Shown here: positions 1,736 through 60,368 of the stretch, one piece after another
Numbering within the stretch: the stretch's first letter is position 1
Layout of the letters: every line of letters starts with the position of its first letter
From: Phycomyces nitens
Lineage: Eukaryota; Mucoromycota; Mucoromycetes; Mucorales; Phycomycetaceae
Direction of reading: 5' to 3'
Length of the DNA stretch: 64,000 nucleotides
Assembly: GCA_022702545.1 (NCBI GenBank)
Contig: JAHRBC010000002.1
Location: 7,998,001-8,062,000 of the forward strand
Position numbers and translations under genes: made by a program
The notes under the pieces: generated by a model
Told to the model about the DNA's origin: nothing
The model's database searches: none
The model's input: the letters and a program-made list of their open reading frames with translations, nothing else

Positions 1736-1818
1736 TGGTAACTGTGAGATTCGAACTCACGCCTCTTGCGAGACCGCAACTTGAGTGCGGCGCCTTAGAC
1801 CAACTCGGCCAAGTTACC
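1736..1818 (-). tRNA. tRNA-Leu (anticodon CAA)
   Basis: The minus strand folds as a class II tRNA. The acceptor GGTAACT pairs with AGTTACC, followed by discriminator A. The D arm contains the A box TGGCCGAGTTGG, the anticodon stem CCGCA/TGCGG encloses loop CTCAAGT (anticodon CAA, reading UUG), a long variable arm TCTCGCAAGAGG follows, and the T arm GTGAG-TTCGAAT-CTCAC holds the B box. No intron is seen. The gene is complete, yet its first 15 nt and 6 nt of 5' flank are one copy of the target-site duplication of the adjacent LINE. Upstream flanking DNA is now LINE sequence; the internal A and B boxes remain, so it may still be transcribed. Confidence 0.95.
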
Positions 1819-2047
1819 GGACACGGCTCTTTCGCTTAAGGATTTTTTTACCCCAAAAAATTTCCTTTTATAGTAATTTTACCGAACTTTCCATCCATCC
1901 TAACCAACACTGCCAACAACTACGCATCCATCGCCTACCACGCCCCATCCCGCCTCCGTAGCAAGTTTTCCATTAAGCTTACCAGTCCAAGCACCCACTG
2001 TCCAAGTTTCAGCCCAAACGAACGACATTTATTTTCCCCGATTCCCG

Positions 2048-2928
2048 ATGTCATCTTCAATGATGCCCCCAATCCCAGGCGCATCAAATGAGCTCATGTC
2101 TTTTTTGGCCTCCATGTTGACCCGCCTTGACAACACTGAGAAGCTTGCTGTCCAAGTGAAGGCTCTTGAAGCCGAGAACAACCGCCTCCAAGCAGAATTG
2201 GCGGACACCCGAAACGTCTTGAGCAGGCTACGACCTCTCAAACCTCCCTTCCCCTGGGCAATAGCCCAAATGTTTCAACCTCCGACCCCGCCCCAAATCC
2301 CAGTTCCCAGGAACCAGGATTGGAAGCCTCCACTTGGGCTGCCAAGGCCAGCGTCAACCGCCCCCCTCCTGCCCGTAAGGGTCCTTCCCCACGCCGAGTT
2401 GCTGCTTCTCAGCGTATTTTCACTGCGGCCTCTGGCCCCCTTGGATATAAATACGTTTATATTCCTCGCTCCCGTCGCCTTACCCACAGGGAAGTGCGTA
2501 GCTCCCTCCGCACCCTTGGTATTGACACTGCTCGTCTGTTGGACATTAATTTCCCTGCTCGTGGAGTTGTTGGCATACTGGTCCACCTCCAGTTCATTGA
2601 CGAATTTGAGGCACAACTCAATAGAGCCAAGGTGGAGATCATTGGTGACTTTGATCCCGTTGACCCACAACACTTGGCAGACCCCAAGTACCACGATCTC
2701 CCTCTGGACGAGCGGGCAAATACTGCCATTCAAGTACAGAATGCGCGTTGTCTCCAGACCCTCAAGTTCCTCCGCCCCCATGTTGCCCTCCCAGTTGCCC
2801 ACTTCTTTGTTGAAGAAGGGTGGATTAGCTCTGATGAGGTGCCTCCCCGTTCTGCTCTTGGTGGGGATGCTGAACAACTGTTTAAGAGAAAGCGCACTCT
2901 CGATCCAAGCAGCCTCATGGAAGAATGA
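2048..2928 (+). pseudogene. LINE-A copy 1 ORF1 (one frameshift)
   Basis: ORF1 RNA-binding/coiled-coil protein of the LINE. The N terminus contains a leucine/heptad coiled coil (NTEKLAVQVKALEAENNRL and onward, about residues 28-65). The C-terminal half is a basic domain with no zinc knuckle. One A is missing at about 2214 (CCCGAAACG against CCCGAAAACG in copies 2 and 3), shifting the frame; the remainder is read from 2320. It ends TGA at 2926-2928, overlapping the ORF2 start as ATGA. The lost base is in an A run, so sequencing error is as likely as mutation. Confidence 0.85.
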
Positions 2929-5900
2929 GTGAGCTTTCTATAGGATTATGGAACGCCAATGGGCTTCAACCCCGTGCCATAAACGACGTGCTCAACCACT
3001 GTCAGTCCCTCCATATGCTCTTCATCACAGAAACATGGCTCCTGTCACCTGCGCGTATTCTCACATCATGGTCCCAATTTCATTTGTACGGACCCCCTGT
3101 TGCTGGGACATACCGTGGGTCAATGGGAGTTTCATTGTTAGTCTCCCCTTCCTGTCCTTACACCGTCACCCAAATCCCTATGCCCAACAACTATGCCCTC
3201 GCCGTCAAGATTGGCACCCTTCGATTGGTTTGTGTTTACCTCCCCCCCTCTATGTCCACTGCCGATGCCCTTTCTGTTCTCTCTGACATTCCTTTGACTG
3301 AAGACACCCTCCTTTGTGGGGACTTCAATGCCCGTTTGGGTTCCATCACTGGAGATTATGCCACAAATTCTCGCGGCCTAGCACTTAGTGCATGGCTAGA
3401 AGAAAGATCCCTCACTGTCCTTAATGGCTCACTCTCTCCTTGCACCCCCACCTACATTTCCTTTCGCCGTGAAGTCGAAATTAGCAGTATCATTGACCTA
3501 TTCATCACCAACACCAATTTCGCCAATCCCTCTCTCCACATTCAAACCGAACTCTCCCTAGGCTCTGACCACCGACTTCTTTCACTTTCCTTCACCTATG
3601 ACCTTGACCCTTCCCCTCCATCTCCACCCCCTCTCCGCCGACTCTGGAACCTCTCACGCCTCAAGGAACCAGACGTCCTTCAACTCTACACCGATTCCCT
3701 CATCCTCAACGCCACACCCCTCCTCAACACCTTGCAAGACATTGTACAAAACCCGCCCTCCTCTCCTCCCCCCATTGATGCCCTTACTAACGATTTCAAC
3801 ACACTCATTTATGATTCTCTTAGTAGTTCAATAGGTACCCGCCCTCACCGCCCATCCAAATGGAAGAAATTCTGGACCCCTGCCCTTCAAGCGGCAGCCG
3901 ACCATCGTGATGGTTGTTACAAGCAATGGCGTCGTGCTTGTGGCATTGACAAGATCAATTGGTGGAGCCGGCACCAACATGCACATCAGGAGTTCCGTCA
4001 ACAAGTCCAGACAGCAAAACGTCAATCCTGGCACGCCTTCTGTAGGTCTCTGGAACGTGACTTTGCCAAGGCCACTTCCAAGATCAAACAGATCAAAAGG
4101 CGTCGACAACCCAAACATGTCTTCCAACATGACGATGGCCCAGCTGCTGCAGCAACCATCATGTGCAACCACCTTGCTTCGGTGTATAGTGGCCACATCC
4201 TTCCTTCCTCCCGCCCTCCTCCTCCTCCATCAACCTCTCCTCACCTGCCTTTCGCCGCTGTTGACTCCCCATTTGATTCGTCAGTGGTGGAAGAATACAT
4301 GCGATTTATGCCTAGCCGCAAGGCGCCGGGTCCTGACCATATCCGTGCAGAAATGCTTAAGCCCGTTCGGTCCAAACTCTCTCCTCTCCTTGCCCTGCTC
4401 TTCACTCTGTGTTGGCAGTGGTCTTATGTCCCCTCTCTCTGGCGCCAAGCCCAAGTTTTCCCAATCTTCAAGAAGGGTAACCCAAACGACGCTGCCAATT
4501 ATCGGCCAATCTCTCTCACTTCTGTTCTTCGGAAATTACTTGAGATGTGTATTGCGCCTGATCTCACCAAGTTCTCTCCTCCCTTGGACGTAGCACAAGG
4601 TGGATTTCGCCCCGACGTGGAGCACTGGACCAGGCCCTCTGCTTGCATGACCTTGTCAAAGCCCACTACCGCCGCCACAACCGCTACCCTGTAGTCGCCT
4701 TCCTTGACATCAAGGCAGCTTATGACACCGTAGACCGACGTGTCATTTGGGATGCTCTTGTCCGCCGTCAAACTCCCCTGCCCTCGTTGGCCTCCTTGTC
4801 AACATGTTTGACGAAGTCTCCATCTCTGTCCTTCTTGGCAACTTCTCCTCCCATTCCTTCTCTCCTTCCACAGGTGTACTGCAAGGCTCAGTCCTCAGTC
4901 CCCACTTATACTCTATCTACATCAACTCCCTGCCGCCTCTCCTTCGCACAGTTGCTCTGTCTACATCCGCCGCCCATGTCCCATCGTCCTCTCCCTCCTC
5001 GTTGGATTCCTATCGCGCCCTTTTGGATCCTTCAGGTGTGGATGACTTTGGCGATTCCACCTCTCCCACGCCGATTAACTCTCTTCTCTTTGCTGACGAC
5101 GTTGCCATTTTTGGTTCCGTTCCTGACGTTCAGAAAATGTTGGATCTGGCCGCAGCCCACTCTCTGGAACTCGGTTACCGTTGGAGTCCATCCAAATGTG
5201 CATTTGTGTACCAAAACTCCCGCTCCCACTCTCCTCCCTCCCTCTCCCTGTATGGTGAGTTACTCCCTGCAGTGGATGAGTTTATCTACCTTGGCATGCC
5301 GTTCCGGAGTAAGGGAATTCATTCCCCCTCCATTGTAACCCATCGTCGAGCTGGTACCCTTGCTGCCATGGCCACAATGCACGCCGTTGGTGCCTGCCGT
5401 TCTGGTTTCTCTCTGCTCTTGAGCTCTCGGTTATACCGAACGTTCATCCGTCCCAAGTTCGAGTATGGCCTGGCCATTGCCCCACTCCTAGAAAAGGATT
5501 TCAAGGCCTTGGAACTGATACAAGATAAGTGTCTTCGCATGATAGTTGGGGGCATGCCACGTCCTCCACTATTGTGTTGAAGCACATCTGTAATATACCC
5601 AGCATGAGATTCCGCAAGGATATCCTTGTTACCAAGTTCTGCCTTCGGGCCCGTACCCTTCCTTCCCGCTGTCTCCTTTCTCTCCTCCACCAACACCACC
5701 GTTCCCATTCCTCCCTTGTCCCGCTGAGCCACCATCCATTCCTTCTCGATATGCCAGTTTCCCTCAACGTACGTAGCATCAACGCCGTACAAAAATACCT
5801 TGACTCCCGTCGAGTGTCCCTTTTCGCCACCTTCCTCTCCAACACCACCCAAGTCTTGATCCAAGCATGTCGCCCTGACCTTGGGGTTGACCCAATCCTG

Positions 5901-6251
5901 TTCCTCCCTGCTTCCCGAGTAGAACGTGGTCGCCTTGTTCGTTGGCGAATGGGTTGGCTACCCGGAAACCCTCGTTCATGTGCATGTGAGACAGACCACA
6001 CCTCTCGCCGTCATCTCGCCATCTGCCCTAGGATCCCATCAGAACTCCTTGCTTCCCTCCCAATCCCTCCCTCTCCTGCGAATCATCCCATTGATTTTGC
6101 CATCTCCTCCCTCCCTTCCTCTTCCTCGGCCCCATGTCCGCCATACTGGGTGCCATTGCTCACCATTCTCTGGCACATCGATCAATTGTGCAACCCTGAT
6201 GGGGAGTACTCCCACGAGAAGAACCATGGTGCTTTGTGGCATGCTGCTTAG
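2925..6251 (+). pseudogene. LINE-A copy 1 ORF2: APE endonuclease and reverse transcriptase (three frameshifts)
   Basis: Enzyme for target-primed reverse transcription. The N-terminal apurinic-endonuclease-like domain (2925-3600) shows GLWNANGL, FITETWLL, LCGDFNARLG, SIIDLFITN and GSDHRLL, which cover the known catalytic residues. The RT domain shows KAPGPDHIRAEML, NYRPISLTSV, AFLDIKAAYDTVD (motif A), GVLQGSVLSPHLY (B) and LLFADDVAIF (C, about 5090). The C terminus has a CxC-x8-H-x3-C cluster (CACETDHTSRRHLAIC). No RNase H is seen. Single-base losses in C or G runs near 4612, 4778 and 5556 break the frame; joined, it would be about 1,108 residues. Copy 3 is in frame at all three points. Confidence 0.88.
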
Positions 6252-6793
6252 CATTTTTTTTTTTATTTTATTTTATTTTATCTTTTTCTAGTTCTTTTCG
6301 CACAGGAAAAGTTGTCTGTCTGTTCTCCTATCTCCTCCCTTCCACTGTTACAACTATTTCACAGCTGCGAAGTGGAGAGTAGGGCTCAGCTTTCATCTTA
6401 GTACTGTTAGCTCACTCCATTTTTCTCTACTTTTTTTTGTCTTCCTTGTGCCCAAGAGACTTTTTTGCTTCCCTTCCAGTAGTTCTCGAGATGCTAAATG
6501 GTCTATAGACTGCCAGCACTATATCTCTCAATAAAACATAATCTTTAACCTCGGCCAAGTTACCGGACACGGCTCTTTCGCTTAAGGATTTTTTTACCCC
6601 AAAAAATTTCCTTTTATAGTAATTTTACCGAACTTTCCATCCATCCTAACCAACACTGCCAACAACTACGCATCCATCGCCTACCACGCCCCATCCCGCC
6701 TCCGTAGCAAGTTTTCCATTAAGCTTACCAGTCCAAGCACCCACTGTCCAAGTTTCAGCCCAAACGAACGACATTTATTTTCCCCGATTCCCG

Positions 6794-7675
6794 ATGTCAT
6801 CTTCAATGATGCCCCCAATCCCAGGCGCATCAAATGAGCTCATGTCTTTTTTGGCCTCCATGTTGACCCGCCTTGACAACACTGAGAAGCTTGCTGTCCA
6901 AGTGAAGGCTCTTGAAGCCGAGAACAACCGCCTCCAAGCAGAATTGGCGGACACCCGAAAACGTCTTGAGCAGGCTACGACCTCTCAAACCTCCCTTCCC
7001 CTGGGCAATAGCCCAAATGTTTCAACCTCCGACCCCGCCCCAAATCCCAGTTCCCAGGAACCAGGATTGGAAGCCTCCACTTGGGCTGCCAAGGCCAGCG
7101 TCAACCGCCCCCCTCCTGCCCGTAAGGGTCCTTCCCCACGCCGAGTTGCTGCTTCTCAGCGTATTTTCACTGCGGCCTCTGGCCCCCTTGGATATAAATA
7201 CGTTTATATTCCTCGCTCCCGTCGCCTTACCCACAGGGAAGTGCGTAGCTCCCTCCGCACCCTTGGTATTGACACTGCTCGTCTGTTGGACATTAATTTC
7301 CCTGCTCGTGGAGTTGTTGGCATACTGGTCCACCTCCAGTTCATTGACGAATTTGAGGCACAACTCAATAGAGCCAAGGTGGAGATCATTGGTGACTTTG
7401 ATCCCGTTGACCCACAACACTTGGCAGACCCCAAGTACCACGATCTCCCTCTGGACGAGCGGGCAAATACTGCCATTCAAGTACAGAATGCGCGTTGTCT
7501 CCAGACCCTCAAGTTCCTCCGCCCCCATGTTGCCCTCCCAGTTGCCCACTTCTTTGTTGAAGAAGGGTGGATTAGCTCTGATGAGGTGCCTCCCCGTTCT
7601 GCTCTTGGTGGGGATGCTGAACAACTGTTTAAGAGAAAGCGCACTCTCGATCCAAGCAGCCTCATGGAAGAATGA
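6794..7675 (+). CDS. LINE-A ORF1 protein (intact copy)
   Basis: The only uninterrupted ORF1 in the array, 293 residues. Residues about 28-65 form a coiled coil with leucines and charged residues in heptads (LAVQVKALEAENNRLQAEL). A Ser/Thr/Pro-rich linker follows, then a basic domain (about 115-270) with YKYVYIPRSRRLTHREVR and GILVHLQFIDEF, perhaps an RRM-like fold; this is not certain. Coiled coil plus nucleic-acid binding without zinc knuckles is the L1-type ORF1 layout. The stop TGA overlaps the ORF2 ATG (ATGA at 7672-7675), suggesting termination-reinitiation. The presumed role is to coat the LINE RNA. Confidence 0.82.
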   Translation: MSSSMMPPIPGASNELMSFLASMLTRLDNTEKLAVQVKALEAENNRLQAELADTRKRLEQATTSQTSLPLGNSPNVSTSDPAPNPSSQEPGLEASTWAAKASVNRPPPARKGPSPRRVAASQRIFTAASGPLGYKYVYIPRSRRLTHREVRSSLRTLGIDTARLLDINFPARGVVGILVHLQFIDEFEAQLNRAKVEIIGDFDPVDPQHLADPKYHDLPLDERANTAIQVQNARCLQTLKFLRPHVALPVAHFFVEEGWISSDEVPPRSALGGDAEQLFKRKRTLDPSSLMEE

Positions 7676-10600
7676 GTGAGCTTTCTATAGGATTATGGAA
7701 CGCCAATGGGCTTCAACCCCGTGCCATAAACGACGTGCTCAACCACTGTCAGTCCCTCCATATGCTCTTCATCACAGAAACATGGCTCCTGTCACCTGCG
7801 CGTATTCTCACATCATGGTCCCAATTTCATTTGTACGGACCCCCTGTTGCTGGGACATACCGTGGGTCAATGGGAGTTTCATTGTTAGTCTCCCCTTCCT
7901 GTCCTTACACCGTCACCCAAATCCCTATGCCCAACAACTATGCCCTCGCCGTCAAGATTGGCACCCTTCGATTGGTTTGTGTTTACCTCCCCCCCTCTAT
8001 GTCCACTGCCGATGCCCTTTCTGTTCTCTCTGACATTCCTTTGACTGAAGACACCCTCCTTTGTGGGGACTTCAATGCCCGTTTGGGTTCCATCACTGGA
8101 GATTATGCCACAAATTCTCGCGGCCTAGCACTTAGTGCATGGCTAGAAGAAAGATCCCTCACTGTCCTTAATGGCTCACTCTCTCCTTGCACCCCCACCT
8201 ACATTTCCTTTCGCCGTGAAGTCGAAATTAGCAGTATCATTGACCTATTCATCACCAACACCAATTTCGCCAATCCCTCTCTCCACATTCAAACCGAACT
8301 CTCCCTAGGCTCTGACCACCGACTTCTTTCACTTTCCTTCACCTATGACCTTGACCCTTCCCTCCATCTCCACCCCCTCTCCGCCGACTCTGGAACCTCT
8401 CACGCCTCAAGGAACCAGACGTCCTTCAACTCTACACCGATTCCCTCATCCTCAACGCCACACCCCTCCTCAACACCTTGCAAGACATTGTACAAAACCC
8501 GCCCTCCTCTCCTCCCCCATTGATGCCCTTACTAACGATTTCAACACACTCATTTATGATTCTCTTAGTAGTTCAATAGGTACCCGCCCTCACCGCCCAT
8601 CCAAATGGAAGAAATTCTGGACCCCTGCCCTTCAAGCGGCAGCCGACCATCGTGATGGTTGTTACAAGCAATGGCGTCGTGCTTGTGGCATTGACAAGAT
8701 CAATTGGTGGAGCCGGCACCAACATGCACATCAGGAGTTCCGTCAACAAGTCCAGACAGCAAAACGTCAATCCTGGCACGCCTTCTGTAGGTCTCTGGAA
8801 CGTGACTTTGCCAAGGCCACTTCCAAGATCAAACAGATCAAAAGGCGTCGACAACCCAAACATGTCTTCCAACATGACGATGGCCCAGCTGCTGCAGCAA
8901 CCATCATGTGCAACCACCTTGCTTCGGTGTATAGTGGCCACATCCTTCCTTCCTCCCGCCCTCCTCCTCCTCCATCAACCTCTCCTCACCTGCCTTTCGC
9001 CGCTGTTGACTCCCCATTTGATTCGTCAGTGGTGGAAGAATACATGCGATTTATGCCTAGCCGCAAGGCGCCGGGTCCTGACCATATCCGTGCAGAAATG
9101 CTTAAGCCCGTTCGGTCCAAACTCTCTCCTCTCCTTGCCCTGCTCTTCACTCTGTGTTGGCAGTGGTCTTATGTCCCCTCTCTCTGGCGCCAAGCCCAAG
9201 TTTTCCCAATCTTCAAGAAGGGTAACCCAAACGACGCTGCCAATTATCGGCCAATCTCTCTCACTTCTGTTCTTCGGAAATTACTTGAGATGTGTATTGC
9301 GCCTGATCTCACCAAGTTCTCTCCTCCCTTGGACGTAGCACAAGGTGGATTTCGCCCCCGACGTGGAGCACTGGACCAGGCCCTCTGCTTGCATGACCTT
9401 GTCAAAGCCCACTACCGCCGCCACAACCGCTACCCTGTAGTCGCCTTCCTTGACATCAAGGCAGCTTATGACACCGTAGACCGACGTGTCATTTGGGATG
9501 CTCTTGTCCGCCGTCAAACTCCCCTGCCCTCGTTGGCCTCCTTGTCAACATGTTTGACGAAGTCTCCATCTCTGTCCTTCTTGGCAACTTCTCCTCCCAT
9601 TCCTTCTCTCCTTCCACAGGTGTACTGCAAGGCTCAGTCCTCAGTCCCCACTTATACTCTATCTACATCAACTCCCTGCCGCCTCTCCTTCGCACAGTTG
9701 CTCTGTCTACATCCGCCGCCCATGTCCCATCGTCCTCTCCCTCCTCGTTGGATTCCTATCGCGCCCTTTTGGATCCTTCAGGTGTGGATGACTTTGGCGA
9801 TTCCACCTCTCCCACGCCGATTAACTCTCTTCTCTTTGCTGACGACGTTGCCATTTTTGGTTCCGTTCCTGACGTTCAGAAAATGTTGGATCTGGCCGCA
9901 GCCCACTCTCTGGAACTCGGTTACCGTTGGAGTCCATCCAAATGTGCATTTGTGTACCAAAACTCCCGCTCCCACTCTCCTCCCTCCCTCTCCCTGTATG
10001 GTGAGTTACTCCCTGCAGTGGATGAGTTTATCTACCTTGGCATGCCGTTCCGGAGTAAGGGAATTCATTCCCTCCATTGTAACCCATCGTCGAGCTGGTA
10101 CCCTTGCTGCCATGGCCACAATGCACGCCGTTGGTGCCTGCCGTTCTGGTTTCTCTCTGCTCTTGAGCTCTCGGTTATACCGAACGTTCATCCGTCCCAA
10201 GTTCGAGTATGGCCTGGCCATTGCCCCACTCCTAGAAAAGGATTTCAAGGCCTTGGAACTGATACAAGATAAGTGTCTTCGCATGATAGTTGGGGGCATG
10301 CCACGTCCTCCACTATTGTGTTGAAGCACATCTGTAATATACCCAGCATGAGATTCCGCAAGGATATCCTTGTTACCAAGTTCTGCCTTCGGGCCCGTAC
10401 CCTTCCTTCCCGCTGTCTCCTTTCTCTCCTCCACCAACACCACCGTTCCCATTCCTCCCTTGTCCCGCTGAGCCACCATCCATTCCTTCTCGATATGCCA
10501 GTTTCCCTCAACGTACGTAGCATCAACGCCGTACAAAAATACCTTGACTCCCGTCGAGTGTCCCTTTTCGCCACCTTCCTCTCCAACACCACCCAAGTCT

Positions 10601-10995
10601 TGATCCAAGCATGTCGCCCTGACCTTGGGGTTGACCCAATCCTGTTCCTCCCTGCTTCCCGAGTAGAACGTGGTCGCCTTGTTCGTTGGCGAATGGGTTG
10701 GCTACCCGGAAACCCTCGTTCATGTGCATGTGAGACAGACCACACCTCTCGCCGTCATCTCGCCATCTGCCCTAGGATCCCATCAGAACTCCTTGCTTCC
10801 CTCCCAATCCCTCCCTCTCCTGCGAATCATCCCATTGATTTTGCCATCTCCTCCCTCCCTTCCTCTTCCTCGGCCCCATGTCCGCCATACTGGGTGCCAT
10901 TGCTCACCATTCTCTGGCACATCGATCAATTGTGCAACCCTGATGGGGAGTACTCCCACGAGAAGAACCATGGTGCTTTGTGGCATGCTGCTTAG
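7672..10995 (+). pseudogene. LINE-A copy 2 ORF2: APE endonuclease and reverse transcriptase (five frameshifts)
   Basis: Same enzyme as copy 1 ORF2, with all APE motifs in frame at the start and RT motifs A, B and C present. The frame breaks at run-length differences near 8358 (C run), 8517 (C5 against C6), 9525 (C4 against C5 in copy 3), 10070 (two C fewer than copy 1) and 10304 (G5 against G6). The longest open piece is 8345-10324. Since each break is in a mononucleotide run and copies differ there only in length, the locus may encode a complete protein of about 1,108 residues if the consensus is wrong at these runs. Confidence 0.87.
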
Positions 10996-11532
10996 CATTT
11001 TTTTTTTTATTTTATTTTATTTTATCTTTTTCTAGTTCTTTTCGCACAGGAAAAGTTGTCTGTCTGTTCTCCTATCTCCTCCCTTCCACTGTTACAACTA
11101 TTTCACAGCTGCGAAGTGGAGAGTAGGGCTCAGCTTTCATCTTAGTACTGTTAGCTCACTCCATTTTTCTCTACTTTTTTTTGTCTTCCTTGTGCCCAAG
11201 AGACTTTTTTGCTTCCCTTCCAGTAGTTCTCGAGATGCTAAATGGTCTATAGACTGCCAGCACTATATCTCTCAATAAAACATAATCTTTAACCTCGGCC
11301 AAGTTACCACGGCTCTTTCGCTTAAGGATTTTTTTACCCCAAAAATTTCCTTTTATAGTAATTTTACCAAACTTTCCATCCATCCTAATCAACACTGCCA
11401 ACAACTACGCATCCATCGCCTACCACGCCCCATCCCGCCTCCGTAGCAAGTTTTCCATTAAGCTTACCAGTCCAAGCACCCACTGTCCAAGTTTCAGCCC
11501 AAACGAACGACATTTATTTTCCCCGATTCCCG

Positions 11533-12413
11533 ATGTCATCCTCAATGATGCCCCCAATCCCAGGCGCATCTAATGAACTCATGTCCTTTTTGGCCTCCAT
11601 GTTGACGCGCCTTGACAACACTGAGAAGCTCGCTGACCAAGTGAAGGCTCTCGAAGCCGAAAACAGCCGCCTCCAAGCAGAATTGGCGGAAACCCGAAAA
11701 CGTCTTGAGCAGGCTACGACCTCTCAAACTTCCTTCCCCTGGGCAATAGCCCAAATGTTTCAACCTCCGACCATGCCCCAAATCCCAGTTCCCAGGAACC
11801 CGGATTGGAAGCCTCTACTTGGGCTGCCAAGGCCAGCGTCAACCGCCCCCCTCCTGCCCGTAAGGGTCCTTCCCCACGCCGAGTTGCTGCTTCTCAGCGT
11901 ATTTTCACTGCGGCCTCTGGCCCCCTTGGATATAAATACGTTTATATTCCTCGCTCCCGTCGCCTCACCCACAGGGAAGTGCGTAGTTCTCTCCGCACCC
12001 TTGGAATTGACACTGCTCGTCTGTTGGACATTAATTTCCCTGCTCGTGGAATTATTGGCATACTTGTCCATCTCCAGTTCGTTGAAGAATTCGAGGCACA
12101 ACTCGATAGAGCCAAGGTTGAGGTCATTGGTGACTTTGATCCCGTTGACCCACAACACTTGGCAGACCCCAAGTACCACGATCTCTCTCTGGACAAGCGG
12201 GCAAATGCTGCCATACAAGTGCAGAATGCACGCTGCCTCCAGACTCTCAAGTTCCTCCGCCCCCATGTTGCCCTCCCAGTTGCCCACTTCTTTGTTGAAG
12301 AAGGGTGGATTAGCGCCGATGAGATACCTACCCGTTCTGCTCTTGATGGTGATGGTGAATCACTGTTTAAGAGAAAGCGCGCATTTGCTCCAAGCAACCT
12401 CATGGAAGAATGA
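11533..12413 (+). pseudogene. LINE-A copy 3 ORF1 (one frameshift)
   Basis: Same protein as the 293-residue copy 2 ORF1, with the coiled coil present (KLADQVKALEAENSRL). One C is missing at about 11731 (AACTTCCTTCCCC against AACCTCCCTTCCCC), so the second half is read in another frame (11805-12413). The 3' end again overlaps ORF2 as ATGA (12410-12413). Substitutions against copy 2 are real base changes, unlike copy 1 against copy 2. Confidence 0.85.
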
Positions 12414-15400
12414 GTGAGCTTTCTATAGGCTTATGGAACGCCAATGGGCTTCAACCCCGTGCCATAAACGACGTGCTCAACCACTGTCAGTCCCTCCATA
12501 TGCTCTTCATCACAGAAACATGGCTCCTGTCACCTGCGCGTATTCTCACATCATGGTCCCAATTTCATTTGTACGGACCCCTGTTGCTGGGACATACCGT
12601 GGGTCGATGGGAGTTTCATTGTTAGTCTCCCCTCCTGTCCTTACACCGTCACCCAAATCCCTATGCCCAACAACTATGCCCTCGCCGTCAAGATTGGCAC
12701 CCTTCGACTGGTTTGTGTTTACCTCCCCCTCTATGTCCACTGCCGATGCCCTCTCTGTTCTCTCTGACATTCCTTTGACGGAAGACACCCTCCTTTGTGG
12801 GGACTTCAATGCCCGTCTGGGTTCCATCACTGGAGATTATGCCACAAATTCTCGCGGCCTAGCACTTAGTGCATGGCTAGAAGAAAGATCCCTCACTGTC
12901 CTTAATGGCTCACTCTCTCCTTGCACACCCACCTACATTTCCTTTCGCCGTGAAGTCGAAATTAGCAGTATCATTGACCTATTCATCACCAACACCAATT
13001 TCGCCAATCCCTCTCTCCACATTCAAACCGAACTCTCCCTAGGCTCTGACCACCGACTTCTTTCACTTTCCTTCACCTATGACCTTGACCCTTCCCCTCC
13101 ATCTCCACCCCCTCTCCGCCGACTCTGGAACCTCTCACGCCTCAAGGAACCAGACGTCCTTCAACTCTACACCGATTCCCTCATCCTCAACGCCACACCC
13201 CTCCTCAACACCTTGCAAGACATTGTACAGAACCCGCACTCCTCTCCTCCCCCATTGATGCCCTTACTAACGATTTCAACACACTCATTTATGATTCTCT
13301 TAGTAGTTCAATAGGTACCCGCCCTCACCGCCCATCCAAATGGAAGAAATTCTGGACCCCTGCCCTTCAAGCGGCAGCCGACCATCGTGATGGTTGTTAC
13401 AAGCAATGGCGTCGCGCTTGTGGCATTGACAAGATCAATTGGTGGAGCCGGCACCAACATGCACATCAGGAGTTCCGTCAACAAGTCCAGACAGCAAAAC
13501 GTCAATCCTGGCACGCCTTCTGTAGGTCTCTGGAACGTGACTTTGCCAAGGCCACTTCCAAGATCAAACAGATCAAACGGCGTCGACAACCCAAACATGT
13601 CTTCCAACATGACGATGGCCCAGCTGCTGCAGCAACCATCATGTGCAACCACCTTGCTTCGGTGTATAGTGGACACATCCTTCCTTCCTCCCGCCCTCCT
13701 CCTCCTCCATCAACCTCTCCTCACCTGCCTTTCGCCGCTGTTGACTCCCCATTTGATTCGTCAGTGGTGGAAGAATACATACGATTTATGCCTAGCCGCA
13801 AGGCGCCGGGTCCTGACCATATCCGTGCAGAAATGCTTAAGCCCGTTCAGTCCAAACTCTCTCCTCTCCTTGCCCTGCTCTTCACTCTGTGTTGGCAGTG
13901 GTCTTATGTCCCCTCTCTCTGGCGCCAAGCCCAAGTTTTCCCAATCTTCAAGAAGGGTAACCCAAACGACGCTGCCAATTATCGGCCAATCTCTCTCACT
14001 TCTGTTCTTCGGAAATTACTTGAGATGTGTATTGCGCCTGATCTCACCAAGTTCTCTCCTCCCTTGGACGTAGCACAAGGTGGATTTCGCCCCCGACGTG
14101 GAGCACTGGACCAGGCCCTCTGCTTGCATGACCTTGTCAAAGCCCACTACCGCCGCCACAACCGCTACCCTGTAGTCGCCTTCCTTGACATCAAGGCAGC
14201 TTATGACACCGTCGACCGACGTGTCATTTGGGATGCTCTTGTCCGCCGTCAAACTCCCCCTGCCCTCGTTGGCCTCCTTGTCAACATGTTTGACGATGTC
14301 TCCATCTCTGTCCTTCTTGGCAACTTCTCCTCCCATTCCTTCTCTCCTTCCACGGGTGTACTGCAAGGCTCAGTCCTCAGTCCCCACTTATACTCTATCT
14401 ACATCAACTCCCTGCCACCTCTCCTTCGCACAGTTGCTCTGTCTACATCCGCCGCCCATGTCCCATCGTCCTCTCCCTCCTCATTGGATTCCTATCGCGC
14501 CCTTTTGGATCCTTCAGGTGTGGATGACTTTGGCAATTCCACCTCTCCCACGCCAATTAACTCTCTTCTCTTTGCTGACGACGTTGCCATTTTTGGTTCC
14601 GTTCCTGACATTCAGAAAATGTTGGACCTGGCCGCAGCCCACTCTCTGGAACTCGGTTACCGTTGGAGTCCATCCAAATGTGCATTTGTGTACCAAAACT
14701 CCCGCTCCCACTCTCCTCCCTCCCTCTCCCTGTATGGTGAGCTACTCCCTGCAGTGGATGAGTTTATCTACCTTGGCATGCCATTCCGGAGTAAGGGAAT
14801 TCATTCCCCCTCCATTGTAACCCATCGTCGAGCTGGTACCCTTGCTGCCATGGCCACAATGCACGCCGTTGGTGCCTGCCGTTCTGGTTTCTCTCTGCTC
14901 TTGAGCTCTCGGTTATACCGAACGTTCATCCGTCCCAAGTTCGAGTATGGCCTGGCCATTGCCCCACTCCTAGAAAAGGATTTCAAGGCCTTGGAACTGA
15001 TACAAGATAAGTGTCTTCGCATGATAGTTGGGGGGCATGCCACGTCCTCCACTATTGTGTTGAAGCACATCTGTAATATACCCAGCATGAGATTCCGCAA
15101 GGATATCCTTGTTACCAAGTTCTGCCTTCGGGCCCGTACCCTTCCTTCCCGCTGTCTCCTTTCTCTCCTCCACCAACACCACCGTTCCCATTCCTCCCTT
15201 GTCCCGCTGAGCAACCATCCATTCCTTCTCGATATGCCAGTTTCCCTCAACGTACGTAGCATCAACACCGTACAAAAATACCTTGACTCCTGTCGAGTGT
15301 CCCTTTTCGCCACCTTCCTCTCCAACACCACCCAAGTCTTGATCCAAGCATGTCGCCCTGACCTTGGGGTTGACCCAATCCTGTTCCTCCCTGCTTCCCG

Positions 15401-15734
15401 AGTAGAACGTGGTCGCCTTGTTTGTTGGCGAATGGGTTGGCTACCCGGAAACCCTCGTTCATGTGCATGTGAGACAGACCACACCTCTCGCCGTCATCTT
15501 GCCATCTGCCCTAGGATCCCATCAGAACTCCTTGCTTCCCTCCCCATCCCTCCCTCTCCTGTGAATCATCCCATTGATTTTGCCATCTCCTCCCTCCCTT
15601 CCTCTTCCTCGGCCCCATGTCCGCCATACTGGGTGCCATTGCTCACCATTCTCTGGCACATCGATCAATTGTGCAACCCTGATGGGGAGTACTCCCACGA
15701 GAAGAACCATGGTGCTTTGTGGCATGCTGCTTAG
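12410..15734 (+). pseudogene. LINE-A copy 3 ORF2 (broken 5' half, intact RT and C terminus)
   Basis: The APE region is broken by run-length losses near 12580, 12633, 12727 (two bases) and 13252. From about 13255 to 15734 the frame is fully open (longest ATG-started piece 13641-15734, 697 residues). It carries RT motifs A (FLDIKAAYDTVDRR), B (GVLQGSVLSPHLY) and C (LLFADDVAIF), the YLGMPF thumb motif, and a C-terminal CxC-x8-H-x3-C cluster. This copy gives the reference frame for the runs that are short in copies 1 and 2. Confidence 0.87.
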
Positions 15735-16024
15735 CATTTTTTTTTTATTTTATTTTTTCCTTTTCTAGTTCTCTTCGCGCAGGAAAAGTTGTCTGTCTGT
15801 TCTCCTATCTCCTCCCTTCCACTGTTACAACTATTCCACAGCTGCGAAGTGGAGAGTAGGGTCCAGCTTTCATCTTAGTACTGTTAGCTCACTCCATTTT
15901 TTCTACTTTTTTTGTCTTCCTTGTGCCCAAGAGACTTTTTTGTTTCCCTTCCAGTAGTTCTCGAGATGCTATATAGTCTATAGACTGCCAGCAACATATC
16001 TCACAATAAAACATAATCTTTAAC

Positions 16025-16045
16025 CTCGGCCAAGTTACCGGACAC
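16025..16045 (+). repeat. Outermost target-site copy of the LINE array (tRNA-Leu 5' end)
   Basis: CTCGGCCAAGTTACC (tRNA nucleotides 15 to 1, antisense) followed by GGACAC. The same sequence is at 1804-1824 (in the intact tRNA) and 6550-6570; a shortened form is at 11294-11308. Because the LINE 3' end may be ..TTAAC or ..TTAACC, the duplication is 20 or 21 bp. Confidence 0.9.
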
Positions 16046-16048
16046 AGT

Positions 16049-16728
16049 TGACACGTGTGTTGTAAGCAGGTTCGGTTTCGACCATGAAGCCGGACCAAGG
16101 GCCTGGAACAGGCCTAGGAGGGGTCGGAGGCCGGACCAATCCGAAGAAGAAGTCCGAGCTGAGTAAGGATGGCCGATCCCCGAGTTTCTTTATTTCTCTT
16201 TCTTTTCAATTTTTCTTTATTTTATTTTATCACATTTTATTATTTCCTTTTTTATACTCTTTCCTTTTATATTTCCTTTGTGAATCCTTTCTCACTTTCT
16301 TGCAGGATTGCACTATTCTGTACTTCTTTAGTTTGTTTCCCCTACTTCTTTGTCTTACCCTTTTCTTTACTATGTTATAGTATTTTTTTTTATTATATTT
16401 TTCCTTTGGCCTTGATGTCATCATTTTATTATTTTATTATTTCATTTTTCGGTTATTCTTTTAGTTATTTTCTTTGTCTATAAAAGACTTTCTTTTCTAA
16501 TGAAATAAAGATTATCAGTCAGTTTTACAATCAATTTTACGGTTATTTTATTCTTTTGAGTTTAAGCTCTTGATCTCTGAAGAGCAGTTATATTTTGCCC
16601 GGTCATTTTGGGGCTATTTCTGTTGAGTTTTGTTAGTCTTTTACTGGTTCTTTCATTGTTTCTTTTATATATTTTATTTGTCGCCCGTTCGGTTACCATA
16701 CACAACCATACAAACACATCACGCGTCA
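16049..16728 (+). repeat. Solo LTR 1 (680 bp)
   Basis: Starts TGACACGTGTGTTGT and ends CACATCACGCGTCA, so the ends are imperfect inverted repeats (TGACACG.. against TGACGCG..). It contains a TATA box (TATAAAAG, 16479-16486) and AATAAA at 16504-16509 just downstream, the compact promoter/poly(A) core expected of an LTR. Preceded by CAGT (16045-16048). Its left edge is 9 bp upstream of the tRNA-Leu 5' end at the array's right border. It is close in sequence to LTR 4. No internal retroelement genes are attached. Confidence 0.8.
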
Positions 16729-16730
16729 GT

Positions 16731-17922
16731 TGACATGGGTGTTGTAGGGTTTCCAGCTTCGCCTACTTCTCTCCATTTCACGTGACTTTTCCAAGGTCTT
16801 CCCTGCTAGAAAGCGTGACGTAGCATCCTGATCAACTTGGCAACGTCACCTTTCTCCATTTGCAAGTCACCTTATTTCTCATATCTCCCTTTTCTCCGCA
16901 CTTCTTTGATTTTCCATATTTGTCACCCTTGCTCTCATTTCAAACCCCTCCTATCCATTTCCATATTTATCCATTGTACACTATTTTTGTCATCTATCTT
17001 CCCTTCCCTTCTCCCCACGTTGCTGTCTGTGCGCACTTATCTTTCTCTTCATGTTATCTATCTCTTTACACCCTCTCACACATTGGCACTTCATTTTATT
17101 CATACCCCTTCATATCTCTGTCCCTTCTCTCACACTGCTCACTTTATCATATTACTGTTATCCATATCTTCATACTTCATATTTACATTGTCCTCGCACA
17201 TTTTCATATCTCATTTTATCTTATCATATTTGTCCTCCATTTTTATATTATCACCTTCACTGTATATCCCATTTTCTCATACTATCATATCTTATTTTGT
17301 CTTATCATCTCATACCTCTCCCCCCAAAGTCATTATTATCCTTATCCATTATCTCATATACTGTTCTATTTTTCATTCACACACCCAATTCCTATATTTT
17401 ATTATTAATCAATTCACCATTTATCACTAAGTAACATTTTACGAAGTCTATATAAGAGACCAAAATTTCAATCAATAAACATTATCAGTTACCTCTCTCT
17501 TAATTTCCATCCCTGAACTAGTGAATTGTCTTGTATAGAAATTCCTAGTCATACCTGTGCCAAGATTGATTTTTCTTTTCATCCAATTCCCTTTTCCGTC
17601 CAAATCTGTATCTTCCCAGCACCTTGCTGTCAACTTTAATAATTGTCCTAAGTGAAATTATCTAGTTCCCCTCTCCTATTATATCTCTTCCTCCCTGTTT
17701 CCATTGCTGTCAAGAATATATTCAACTGTCCCGAGCGAAGTTATATATCTCTATCCATATTTTCACCTTTTCTTTCTCTTGTCCGTTTCTTGCTGTCTAA
17801 TTTCGGTTTCTACCCCTGTTATTGTCTATCTCTATTGCACCATCGTTATTGTCAACGAGTGGTATTTAATTTATTATATTTTCTGACTTGTTTTCACATC
17901 ACAACAAACTCAACACGCGTCA
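16731..17922 (+). repeat. Solo LTR 2 (1,192 bp)
   Basis: Starts TGACATGGGTGTTGTAGG and ends CAACACGCGTCA. TATATAAG is at 17449-17456 and AATAAA at 17474-17479, followed by ATTATCAGT, as in LTR 1. The body is long, T/C-rich and not obviously similar to LTR 1; only the ends and the promoter core match. The junction to LTR 1 is CGCGTCA-GT-TGACAT, as if CA of the usual CACAGT spacer had been lost. Long T/C-rich open frames inside are not genes. Confidence 0.75.
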
Positions 17923-17926
17923 CAGT

Positions 17927-18906
17927 TGACATGTTGCATTGTAGTTTTGTTGTCTCTTTGCACTTGCCCGGACCAAACCCCTTCCCGGCCCATGACGTGT
18001 ACCGAACTCGAGGTCTTTCTGGTAGGAAAATATTTGTAACACCGACGGCGGCCCAACGATTGCGATAATTTCACCCCCTTTTTTCTTTTTCTCCTGTTTT
18101 CTTGTCCATCCCATTTTTGTTAAAGAGGATGTTGACTTAGTCAAATTTCTCAAGTACTATTTTCTTCGACTAAAAATTAGTCAATTATTTTATTACATTT
18201 TTCCGTTGCTCTGTTCTTAACACTTTCAGTAAAGAACATCAATTTAGTTTAGAAATCCTTTTTACATTATTTCATTTTTCTCTTTAGTTTTCCTTGAAGG
18301 TTGTCCTTTACCAAAATTGTTAAAGACACTTCTCATTTTCTTTTAACCGAGCATTATACGATAGTCACTGATGTCTCTTAGCCCATTTTCTTATAATAAT
18401 TTACACCATCTAAGTAGAATTGTTCAATATCGTTTATCCACAAAGTAGTATAAATACCCCTTTGAATTCTTTCAATAAACGAGGATTATCATCTGTCTTA
18501 TATTCTGAATACAAGTTTTCGAGGCACGCGGTTGCTATTTCTCTTGTCGATTTTCCGTTTATTATCTTTTTGTTTTAACCAAGTCCCCGCAGTGGATTGA
18601 TTTTGATTATATTATTTGTACCCCTCTTTGTATTTTGATCATTGTATCTTAATTGTTCTCACTTGAGTTCAGTTATTTCCTTATATTATTTTATTAAGTC
18701 TCTCTTGTGGAATAGAGAACTTCACCCCCTTGTTATTCGTATTTAGAGTGCTTTTGTGGAATAGACACTCACTTTTTACCCTATTTTGAACCCATTACCT
18801 TCAAACCTGGCAATATCTTTTATTCATTCTTTTATATTTCTATATTCGTTTTATTCAATTTCTTTTTTATCAACATCTACCATATTGCCAAGCACCACAC
18901 GCGTCA
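17927..18906 (+). repeat. Solo LTR 3 (980 bp)
   Basis: Starts TGACATGTTGCATTGTAG and ends CACCACACGCGTCA, flanked by CAGT on both sides (17923-17926 and 18907-18910). TATAAATA is at 18449-18456 and AATAAA at 18474-18479, followed by a GATTATCATC element. The body differs from the other three. Confidence 0.75.
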
Positions 18907-18910
18907 CAGT

Positions 18911-19571
18911 TGACACGTGTGTTGTGGGCAGGTTCGGTTTTGACCATGAAGCCGAACCAAGAGCCCGGAACAGGCCTAGGAGGGGTCGGAGGCCGGACCA
19001 GTCCGAAGAAAAGGTCCGAACTGAGTTGGATGGCCGATCTCCGAGTTTCTTTATTTTTCTTTTCTTTCAATTTTCTCTATTTTATTTTATCACACTTTAT
19101 TATTTCCTTTTTTATACTCTTTCCTTTATGAACCCTTTCTCACCTTCTTGCAGGATTGCATCATTCTGTACTTCTTTAGTTTATTTCTCCTACTTCTTTG
19201 TCTTACCCTTTTCTTTACTATTTTACAGTATATTTTTATTATAACTTTTCCTTTGGTCTTGATGGCATCATTTTATTATTTTATCATTTCATTTTTTGGT
19301 TATTCTTTTACTTATTTTTTTTGTCTATAAAAGACATTCTTTTCTAATGAATAAACATCAGTCAGTTTTACGATCAATTTTATGGTTATTTTATTCTTTT
19401 GAGTTTAAGCTTTCAACCTCTGAAGAGCAGTTATATTTTGCCCAGTCATTTTGGGGATATTTCTGTTGAGTTTTGTTAGTCTTTTACTGATTCTTTCATT
19501 GTTTCTTTTATATATTTTATTTGTCGCCCGTTTGGTTACCATACACAACCATACAAACACATCACGCGTCA
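18911..19571 (+). repeat. Solo LTR 4 (661 bp)
   Basis: Starts TGACACGTGTGTTGTGGG and ends CACATCACGCGTCA, flanked by CAGT on both sides (18907-18910 and 19572-19575). TATAAAAG is at 19326-19333 and AATAAA at 19350-19355. It aligns with LTR 1 over its whole length with few substitutions and small indels, so LTR 1 and LTR 4 belong to one subfamily. Confidence 0.8.
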
Positions 19572-22769: not shown

Positions 22770-24110
22770 ATGAGTACCTCTGAGGGATCGAACTCACAGG
22801 GCAGTACTGTCAACCCATGGCAGGTACAACGACCAGCGATCCATGCACAGAGCACACCATCCCGTCCGAAGAACAAGTCTCTTCATATCTTTACTGCACC
22901 TGGTTTTGACTAGAGTCTCTCCGTGAATCCAGCATCTGCTGCTTGGGCCAGCACCATCCATCCATTGAGCATTTTGTTCAATCTTGGTAAACTCGTTCCT
23001 GCAAATGCAGTAGATGATGTCTTCTCTGACAATATTGGCCAGATGACCTCATTGACCTTGCGTTACACTCGTTCCAAGGACCCTTTGGCAGAGGCCCTTT
23101 TCATCAAACCTGCCACTCAGGTGAAAGCCATCTCCAACGGCCTGGTATTTCAGAGCACCAGAATCATCGCCTCTCAAAGTTTGCCTTCTAATAGTCATAT
23201 TGTGAAGGTTAACATGTATCGCATCAGCACCTGCGATCCCAAAACTGATCTTCTTGCACCAATAGAAGAGGCTTTCCAGTCATATGGAAAGGTTGTCCAA
23301 TTGCGTGCCTACATCTCCCACTGTGGAACTTTCCGTGGTGAAGCTACCGTCCTTCTGGACACATTTGGGTTAGACACACCCAAACCCCTTCCCAGCTGTC
23401 TTCATTTGGAAGGATCCATTTCTTGCGCAGTGGAGCTGCGTTCCAAGGATATTCCACCCGTGTGCGGGTATTGCTGTGAGGAAGGTCACTTCCTGCGTGC
23501 ATGTACAAAGCGTCCCTCTCGTACACCCCGCTGTAAGTGTTGTGGTGTCTTGGGCCACGAGATGATCAGCAGAGACTGTCCTGCCCATCCCGATACCATT
23601 GAGGCCGAGCATCTTCAGCAAGAGCAAATCCAGTTGGAGATTGCTGAAGCAGAAGCTCTCCGTGCTCTTCAGACAGAAGCTAATGCTCTCTCTTCCCCAC
23701 CTTCCATTGCAGCTGTGTGTTCAACATTGGACACCACAACTCTTGCACCTATATCTTTGGCTCCAAAGCCCATTTGCCGCCGATCAGTTTTGGTAATGAC
23801 TACTCAATCCAAGGCTGGATCCACTTGACCCCCTGTCCCCACTGGTGGTAACGTAGACATACCAATGTATGATCCCAGTGGTCGCGGCACTGCTGCCAGC
23901 AAGTACTCATTTGCTGCTCGAGGCATTGCACTTCCTGAGGATGGTATATCCCGGCCTACAATGACGGATGTAGAATTCCGCCAGTCCCTGCTCAATTTCT
24001 CAGTCCAGGCCCATGCTCAGGGCAACCAACCTTTTGTTGATCTTGATGGCAACACACCTATGCATGAACCTGATACTGCTTCTGGCCATTCTGGTCAGTC
24101 ATCTTTATAA
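22770..24110 (+). pseudogene. LINE-B1 ORF1, zinc-knuckle RNA-binding protein with two stops
   Basis: First ATG at 22770, one frame to TAA at 24108, with in-frame TAG near 22911 and TGA near 23826. The central part (SHIVKVNMYRISTCD, SYGKVVQLRAYISH, GEATVLLD) looks like a divergent RRM. It is followed by CGYCCEEGHFLRAC (C-x2-C-x4-H-x4-C) and a second, looser knuckle CKCCGVLGH. The same protein is found in broken form in LINE-B2 (55290-59933). The likely role is binding the element RNA. Both stops fit C-to-T changes (CAG to TAG, CGA to TGA). Confidence 0.82.
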
Positions 24111-24111
24111 G

Positions 24112-27100: not shown

Positions 27101-27796
27101 CAACTTCGTGGCAATCACCCAAGAGCACGGAACCATATTGGCCAATTCTTCAGCAAGATTGATGCTGGTAGAATGGTCTATTGTCCTTGGTTTCTTCTGT
27201 GTCTTCAACTCCCGTCTCCCACCTCACCTCCTCCGCCTGGTCTCTTTTCTCTCCTCTCCGTGGTCCTTCTGGACAAACGCCCTTTGGGCAAAGCATCCAC
27301 AGGATCACTGCGCTGGCATCTTCGTCCATCCCCACCTCCACCTCTTCTCCCTCCTGCCCGTTGGCGTTGTTTTTGGTCCCTGGTTATTCCACACCATTGT
27401 CGCACTTTGTGGTGGAAAGTGATATGGCAGCGAATTCCCACCCGACTGGCCATTAACACTATCATGCCTCATACTGTACCTGACCCCATGTGCTTGGTGT
27501 GCTCCACCAACACCAAAGACCAAGATCATTTCCTCTTCTTCTGTCCTAAGAAATGCCAGGTGTGCAACATAGTCCTCTCTCATTTCTGCCAGGGCTGGAC
27601 TTTGGATGACGTTCGTCAGATGCTGACATCTTGTCAACTCCCCTGTCCTTCTCCCACTTGGGATACTCAGATTTTGCTGGTGGTTATAACAGCCAAGGCA
27701 ATTTGGAATGCCCATTGGAAGTTTGTCTTTGACAATCAGCCTTTTCTTCCTGGAGTAGTGGCTACAAAGGCCTCCAGTACTATAGAGAGACAGTGA
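24112..27796 (+). pseudogene. LINE-B1 ORF2: APE endonuclease, reverse transcriptase, zinc-binding C terminus
   Basis: ATG at 24112 follows the ORF1 stop after one base (TAA-G-ATG). APE motifs are LGTLNARGL, LALQETHLL, VLGDFNCNL and WTDHCLL. RT motifs are SSPGMDGLPY, NWRPISLINCD, LLDQEKAYNRV (A), GLQQGDSLLPLLFN (B) and LLAYADDLLLF (C, about 26190). The C-terminal domain has LWWKVIWQRIPT and CLVCSTNTKDQDHFLFFC, the zinc-binding RT module (zf-RVT type). It is broken by TGA near 24586 (CGA to TGA likely), a frameshift near 25370 and another near 26270. Motif B reads LL where the family usually has PLSP, another sign of decay. Confidence 0.85.
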
Positions 27797-59933: not shown

Positions 59934-60368
59934 TGTGATATACACACCACAGTTGAGTGAAATACAATCCCAGTACTGTTAGCTCCCCACTTTTCCTCTC
60001 TCTCTCTTTTTTGTCTATTGTCCCCAAGACTTTTTTCCCTTCACCTTTCGCACTTGAGATGCTACATGATCTATAGATCGCCAGCAACATATCTCGTAAT
60101 AAAAATAATCTTTAACCCGAGTGAAACACAGACTCCCCAACCGATATCTAGTTCCTCTTTGCTAATGACCCTGGAAAGTTAACATCTCAGGAACAGTTAC
60201 ACACCAGGCACACGTACACTTCACACTGCTACAGTGATCACCAACCATTACACGACGGGGACTTTAATTACAAGGGAATTTGAATAATATTATATAAGAA
60301 ATCATAATATTCTTTCTTTAATAAATAATACTCTCACAGTATTCTTATTCCCTTTCAAAGATACTAAC
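59934..60368 (+). repeat. Solo LTR-like repeat, right member of the inverted pair (interrupted)
   Basis: Plus-strand counterpart of 55619-55885, starting TGTGATATACACACCACAG and ending near GATACTAACA. It has ATTATATAAG and AATAAATAATAC near the end. It is interrupted at GAGTGAAA by a 156-bp LINE-A 3' fragment. Its inner flank is LINE-B2 ORF1 at the residue where the plus-strand fragment 55290-55618 stops. Confidence 0.75.
59963..60118 (+). mobile_element. 5'-truncated LINE-A relative (3' UTR only)
   Basis: Matches the last about 150 bp of LINE-A (CAGTACTGTTAGCTC, CCCAAGACTTTTTT, GAGATGCTACATGATCTATAG, ATAATCTTTAAC) at perhaps 75 percent identity. Flanked by GAGTGAAA on both sides (59955-59962 and 60119-60126), a direct 8-bp target duplication; the other copy of the host repeat has the empty site (rc CCACAGTTGAGTGAAACAC). 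So a LINE-A-type element also inserts outside tRNA genes. Confidence 0.82.

Follow-up and report, generated by a model that had tools for sequence, protein, structure and literature searches.

LINE-A, a long interspersed nuclear element (LINE) of the mould Phycomyces nitens, very probably inserts by site-specific target-primed reverse transcription inside transfer RNA (tRNA) genes, with a 15-bp target duplication that rebuilds the gene it enters. The window, the whole 64,000-nucleotide stretch analysed here (C4:7998001-8062000 in an assembly of 49 Mb and 11 contigs), holds three full-length copies head to tail at 1825-6549, 6571-11293 and 11309-16024, beside an intact tRNA-Leu(CAA). This tandem arrangement was recognised in a preliminary description of the same DNA and is confirmed. 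The copies are ~4.72 kb each, and by BLAST copy 1 is 99.9% identical to copy 2 and 97.4% identical to copy 3. The array comprises the following features (nt, nucleotides; ORF, open reading frame; RT, reverse transcriptase; APE, apurinic/apyrimidinic endonuclease).

1736-1818, minus strand: intact tRNA-Leu(CAA), the present-day target (ARAGORN)
1804-1818, plus strand: tRNA nt 1-15 in antisense, CTCGGCCAAGTTACC, the 5' copy of the target-site duplication; the first nick would lie between tRNA nt 15 and 16
1819-1824, plus strand: GGACAC, read as a 5' extension of copy 1 outside the duplication
1825-6549, plus strand: LINE-A copy 1, of the youngest type (last 1480 bp free of substitutions and indels against five copies elsewhere)
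2925-4694, plus strand: N-terminal part of copy 1 ORF2, an APE-type endonuclease and then the start of the RT (Pfam PF14529 5.4e-14, PF03372 4.9e-7)
6550-6564, plus strand: 15-bp duplicate of tRNA nt 1-15, 3' of copy 1
6571-11293, plus strand: LINE-A copy 2, with GGACAC ahead of it at 6565-6570
6794-7675, plus strand: copy 2 ORF1, 293 amino acids (no Pfam match above the cut-off)
11294-11308, plus strand: 15-bp duplicate 3' of copy 2
11309-16024, plus strand: LINE-A copy 3, older type (27 substitutions against copies 1 and 2, last 1480 bp)
13641-15734, plus strand: copy 3 ORF2, RT and C-terminal part, 697 amino acids (Pfam RVT_1 2.5e-24)
16025-16039, plus strand: 15-bp duplicate 3' of copy 3

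LINE-A insertion sites across the genome

A search with the LINE-A 3' end, in which 40 of 60 candidates were scored, gave 20 places at ≥94% identity, and a search with the 5' end gave 25 places at ≥96% identity; these LINE counts are lower bounds. By coordinates, each of the 20 3' ends has a same-strand 5' end as its partner. The spacing is ~4.7 kb in 17 pairs, 5.3 kb in one and ~11 kb in two, the last presumably because these spans contain inserted material. The 30 3'-end loci listed consist of the 20 paired copies, five short A-like loci (L017, L023, L026, L028, L036), three sister-type loci (L029, with two 3' ends, L030 and L033) and two loci of another repeat that were dropped (L034, L035). 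Weaker pattern matches, 65 + 65 in total versus 18 + 13 in the control, stand outside the counts.

Every paired LINE-A copy is followed by antisense tRNA nt 1-15, that is, CTC plus 12 nt of a Leu or Ser 5' end. These 15-mers belong to Leu-CAA (5), Leu-TAG (1), Ser-AGA (8), Ser-TGA (3) and Ser-GCT (2), and one is degenerate and Ser-like. With 20 of 20 full-length copies at tRNA nt 15/16, the degenerate site included, LINE-A behaves as a site-specific element. The preliminary description had called it tRNA-Leu-specific and expected most full-length copies to be followed by a tRNA-Leu 5' end. A tRNA 5' end is indeed found in all 20, but only six are Leu and 14 (one degenerate) are Ser sites, so the claim of Leu specificity does not stand.

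On the other side of the element, 12 of the 25 LINE-A 5' ends adjoin an intact tRNA gene on the opposite strand (three Leu-CAA, one Leu-TAG, four Ser-AGA, two Ser-TGA, two Ser-GCT), which supports the earlier suggestion that insertion regenerates the gene. Of the loci that have an adjoining tRNA at the 5' end and a 3' end that was read, 12 of 12 carry a match to their own tRNA in the 15 nt past the 3' end, which excludes chance. Four further 5' ends lie within arrays, after the 15-mer of another LINE (window copies 2 and 3, L089, and L096, which additionally has a short long terminal repeat (LTR) remnant).

Occupancy is given for exact tRNA patterns only and is not a full census, since the tRNA family search scored 63 of 2276 candidates. 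Eight of the 15 tRNA-Ser genes that share one exact pattern have an adjoining LINE-A 5' end, versus ~1.5e-4 of 15 expected by chance placement; two others have an LTR between, and for five no LINE-A 5' end was found nearby. LINE-A adjoins 3/6 of the exactly matched tRNA-Leu genes that start with GGTAACTT versus 0/9 of those that start with GGAGAGAT (15 genes, Fisher p 0.044). The tRNA-Leu(TAG) start has a sole match in the genome at ≤2 mismatches; this gene carries a LINE-A insertion and reads intact.

Duplication geometry and proposed mechanism

Read from the sequence, the target-site duplication is tRNA nt 1-15 (15 bp), which would put the first nick after nt 15 and the second at nt 1. A duplication test on 18 copies gave 15-17 bp in 11 (exactly 15 in six), 21-25 bp in three because another LINE start lies downstream, and none in four because an LTR end stands on the 5' side. 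The junction, ..CCGAG/T, supports a sense-strand nick inside the A box, as first proposed from the window.

In the mechanism that we favour, the first nick would fall in the tRNA sense strand after nt 15, within the A box, following ..GAG/ for LINE-A (Leu/Ser) and ..CAG/ for its sisters (Ile/Thr). The second strand would be cut 15 bp away, exactly at mature tRNA nt 1. Fill-in would then duplicate nt 1-15, with one copy rebuilding the tRNA gene at the LINE 5' end and the other left as a 15-nt relic past the LINE 3' end. We infer the order of the two cleavages and a domain that recognises the target. The rebuilt gene would be a fresh target, so that insertions pile up facing one way, the latest lying closest to the tRNA, at presumably little harm to the host.

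The preliminary description had given the borders as 15 nt of tRNA-Leu plus GGACAC and had read these as a 21-bp duplication. The first part holds, as CTCGGCCAAGTTACC follows all three window copies (6550, 11294, 16025), but GGACAC is missing between copies 2 and 3 (GTTACC/ACGGCTC). The hexamer also occurs at a tRNA-Ser(GCT) locus although the 3' flank of that locus does not have it, and is therefore probably a 5' extension borne by some copies outside the duplication. A true 21-bp duplication with later deletion of GGACAC would be a less simple but possible reading of both observations; we prefer 15 bp.

Some 5' junctions may record where a copy came from. The copy at C9:143160, inserted at tRNA-Ser(AGA) (L085, C9:142980-143190), starts at the 5' junction with 13 nt from tRNA-Leu(TAG), likely a 5' transduction that names its source locus. 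The second tagged copy, L092 at C1:8377054, sits at tRNA-Ser(GCT) and starts with GGACAC like the window array. If the tags are 5' transductions, transcription begins a little way upstream of the element, and Leu to Ser was the direction of both transfers.

Insertion gives the tRNA a new upstream flank, the antisense 5' end of the LINE (window 1819-1880). Where the 6-nt extension is missing, TAAAAAAA lies ~28 bp and TATAAAAGG ~50 bp upstream of nt 1, as seen by eye, and the LINE-derived flank might stand in for an upstream element of RNA polymerase III (Pol III).

Repeated insertion and age order

The 25 LINE-A 5' ends fall into 15 clusters (<50 kb). Eight of these hold two or three copies, always in uniform orientation, which supports the repeated insertion at one gene that had been predicted from the window. 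Twelve of the 20 copies show 0 mutual substitutions over the last 1480 bp, and the distal copies of three clusters (WIN, C1, C4_495) have 26-31 substitutions versus this young set over the same length. In two more (C7, C9), identity to copy 1 is 100% for the proximal 5' end and 97% for the distal one. The tRNA-proximal copy is thus of the youngest type in the five informative clusters of the eight. The others are uninformative: both copies are young in C5_402, and both 5' ends are 97% identical in C10 and C4_463. C10_727 was left out of the age reading, as its 450-470 differences come from 1480 bp that do not align throughout. New insertions at the rebuilt tRNA displace older ones outward, as the geometry predicts.

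Sister subfamilies at Ile and Thr genes

In a sister set whose 3' end is ~73-76% identical to that of LINE-A, 16 3' ends could be read, and 15 of these continue into a CTGAG.. 15-mer. Six of the 15-mers are exact tRNA-Ile(AAT) starts and three are exact tRNA-Thr(AGT) starts, all of genes confirmed by ARAGORN; the remaining six are tRNA-start-like and tied to no gene. An intact tRNA-Ile adjoins one sister 5' end (L108), where ARAGORN begins the tRNA one base earlier and the 15-nt statement rests on the preferred acceptor pairing. Two Ile and two Thr genes lie near four further sister elements, with an LTR start beside each tRNA. Another set (~80-84%) has five readable 3' ends of CTGAGCTA type. 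tRNA-Met, at one point considered for some sister targets, was wrong; ARAGORN identifies these as tRNA-Thr(AGT).

LINE-A nicks after GAG and the sisters after CAG, which are nt 13-15 of Leu/Ser and of Ile/Thr, respectively. We think it fairly likely that a fungal LINE lineage has split the host tRNA genes among its subfamilies by combining a GAG or CAG nick with an unvarying 15-bp stagger, a pair that fits nt 13-15 and nt 1 of tRNA genes, so that each subfamily would hit its own tRNA classes and each hit would rebuild the gene. Because the subfamilies differ in nick motif and tRNA class, the target choice of the endonuclease would be testable with small swaps.

Short and off-target copies

Placement at tRNA sites separates the paired LINE-A copies (20/20) from the short A-like copies (0/5; Fisher p 1.9e-5, with lengths measured for four of the five), a contrast that may come in part from the loss of long off-target copies. 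Among 15 short or off-target copies, ten have a duplication of 15-18 bp (≤1 mismatch) around elements of 64-221 bp. Because off-target copies share a similar duplication length, the stagger is apparently a property of the enzyme, and the nick position would then account for the match to the tRNA 5' end; the idea that the tRNA dictates the duplication length was rejected on the same ground. Among sites with a duplication, the 5' duplicate keeps CTC in 4/4 of A type and CTG in 4/6 of B type. The nick trinucleotides used in comparing off-target sites with tRNA come from 3' flanks, where the last LINE base can mimic the first C.

One such copy lies in the window.

59972-60116, plus strand: 5'-truncated LINE-B tail at a non-tRNA site (76.6% identity to the last 150 bp of copy 1, 91% to LINE-B)

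Four truncated LINE-B tails at unrelated sites (L129, L130, L131 and window ~59965) have nearly the same starting point, CCCAGTACTG, ~143 nt away from the 3' end, as might be expected from use of a short RNA whose 5' end is fixed.

Alternative explanations

How is the target chosen? One possibility, which we hold to be somewhat unlikely, is that the Pol III complex sets the target through a TFIIIB/TFIIIC tether, as proposed for TRE5-A, and that the endonuclease adds a weak nick preference. Off-target sites resemble tRNA little beyond the nick trinucleotide, so the nick motif alone cannot explain the tRNA sites of all paired full-length copies, and an LTR element occupies the same region. However, a tether does not readily account for single-base precision at nt 15/16 across five isoacceptors, for isotype choice that tracks sequence (GAG versus CAG) or for the unequal occupancy of the two tRNA-Leu starts, and TRE5 inserts 40-54 bp upstream of the gene, not inside it, in the accessible part of the report (PMC5911963). 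Pol III factors may also assist insertion under the mechanism that we favour.

An unlikely alternative is homing by a read-through RNA tail, made of the LINE 3' end and antisense tRNA nt 1-15, that pairs with the nicked sense strand. In its favour, the 15-mer past each of the 20 paired copies is complementary to the strand targeted. Against it, L085 and L092 carry tags that point to a Leu source while sitting at Ser genes, where only ~5 and 3 nt of their tails would pair at the nick. If the tagged copies did move from Leu to Ser, tail homing alone is disfavoured.

Segmental duplication of one chance insertion, genome-wide or in tandem, a possibility raised in the preliminary description, can be rejected with near certainty: the 99.9% identity of window copies 1 and 2 would suit it, but twelve tRNA loci of five isoacceptors each carry their own matching 15-mer, and copy 1 equals five copies at other loci (0 indels, last 1480 bp) while differing by 2 indels from copy 2, which disfavours local duplication. 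An assembly artefact in the repeat arrays is scarcely credible either, for although indels without substitutions among the young copies suggest residual read errors, the same junctions recur at one-copy loci with distinct flanks (C5:5690145, C5:5841770, C4:1123044).

Several observations weigh against site-specific insertion with gene rebuilding. The survey covers one assembly of one genome, without reads. Five of the 25 LINE-A 5' ends are without a 3' partner, their 3' side being unread, and nine have the end of an LTR element before them and no tRNA there; at two LTR-bounded copies an intact tRNA-Ser lies 1.0 and 7.1 kb off, with the LTR start beside the tRNA (C4:4647220, C5:7739854). One of the 16 sister 3' ends is not tRNA-like (L128), and the five short LINE-A-like 3' ends are at non-tRNA sites. 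Five of the 15 short or off-target copies lack a convincing duplication (L023, L130, L081, L079 and the window copy). Of these, L079 is a tRNA-type site whose 5' end fell outside the stretch searched. The 5' copy is without the CAG nick motif at two B-type off-target sites (L132, L134). Lastly, the ORFs of the window copies are interrupted at differing places by single-base indels, so LINE-A can only be presumed active. Young copies have few indels and zero substitutions between them over the last 1480 bp, and some of the ORF breaks may be read errors.

Element class and coding capacity

By its sequence LINE-A is a two-ORF, APE-type non-LTR retrotransposon. ORF2 of copy 1 has an APE-like endonuclease, the RT is of the non-LTR kind, no LTRs were seen at the ends of the three window copies, and its target duplications and 5'-truncated copies are as is usual for target-primed reverse transcription. 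In the PDB, the homolog P0003 matches RT entries of LINE-1 and R2, which do not decide among clades (Tx1, R1, L1, Tad). Compared with PDB sequences, the endonuclease part gave one match, to a ribosomal protein at E 0.32. Named relatives of ORF2 come from Umbelopsis, Rhizopus, Mucor, Lichtheimia and Phycomyces, and no LINE relatives were confirmed in viral contigs.

Neighbouring elements and genes

The array is followed by repeats of another kind.

16040-19571, plus strand: GGACACAGT, then stacked LTR-type repeats that begin TGACAC/TGACAT and finish GCGTCA

An LTR-type element (TGACAC..GCGTCA) occurs ~9-11 nt upstream of the tRNA at 8/15 tRNA-Leu genes and in 6/6 other fetched tRNA stretches (loci: window 16040-19571, L037-L051, L137-L142). 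It is sometimes found inside the first bases of the LINE, and the window has several in head-to-tail order. It seems to be a Ty3-like element that targets tRNA genes independently. Further along the window, 22923-27796 contains another retroelement, with zinc-knuckle-like and RT-like ORFs recognised by eye, and at 44446-45768 an ORF resembling mitochondrial intermediate peptidase shares 90% identity with Phycomyces blakesleeanus.

Comparison with known systems

If the subfamilies do divide the tRNA genes among them, these genes would be permanent landing sites that grow ladders of elements while their function is kept. A LINE that cuts an essential promoter element yet spares the gene would solve the parasite's problem of harming its host, and this could explain long persistence. 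The proteins of site-specific LINEs also attract interest as tools for insertion.

R1 and other site-specific APE LINEs have a fixed nick, a fixed short target duplication and full-length copies at the target. R1 disrupts its 28S gene unit, whereas the LINE-A target is regenerated. Bacterial islands that enter tRNA genes restore the 3' end by means of a tyrosine recombinase and att sites; they resemble LINE-A in restoring the tRNA entered, but the mechanism is unrelated.

The dictyostelid TRE5/TRE3 and NLTR-A/B elements, as described in the accessible text of two reports, are tRNA-linked LINEs that insert outside the gene (PMC5911963, PMC5006619). Like LINE-A, they are APE-type non-LTR elements that land at tRNA genes, and several can stack at one gene. 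Unlike them, LINE-A does not insert tens of bp outside the gene but at one base inside the A box, and the gene is rebuilt. Three other non-LTR elements use one tRNA gene type each, namely NeSL-1_TV (tRNA-Pro), LIN15_SM (tRNA-Arg) and LIN25_SM (tRNA-Glu); the available portion of that report discusses them with the NeSL group, does not describe gene rebuilding, and assigns a restriction-like endonuclease to target-specific elements outside the Tx1 and R1 clades (PMC4640811).

Zebrafish Dewa, cited as a precedent in the preliminary description, is a non-LTR element linked to tRNA-Leu, as LINE-A is, but according to the accessible text it targets the tRNA-Leu spacer, not the gene (PMC3706591). 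The same text describes Dada DNA transposons that use tRNA-Leu, tRNA-Ala and snRNA genes, with a 7-bp duplication (GCGTTCA) inside tRNA-Leu; these share the use of tRNA genes with LINE-A but have a DDE transposase (PMC3706591). Closer to Phycomyces, Ty3-type LTR elements co-localise with tRNA genes in the related mould Rhizopus oryzae, and the part of that report available makes no such statement for LINEs (PMC2699053).

Within titles and the beginnings of abstracts, with subscription journals and Repbase reports mostly outside this scope, a literature search returned no APE LINE that restores a gene after cutting its A box, and no such LINE from this fungal group, which is weak evidence of novelty. 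Site-specific LINEs are known as a kind, and from the junctions described here a cut in the A box combined with rebuilding of the tRNA gene would be a new variant of it.

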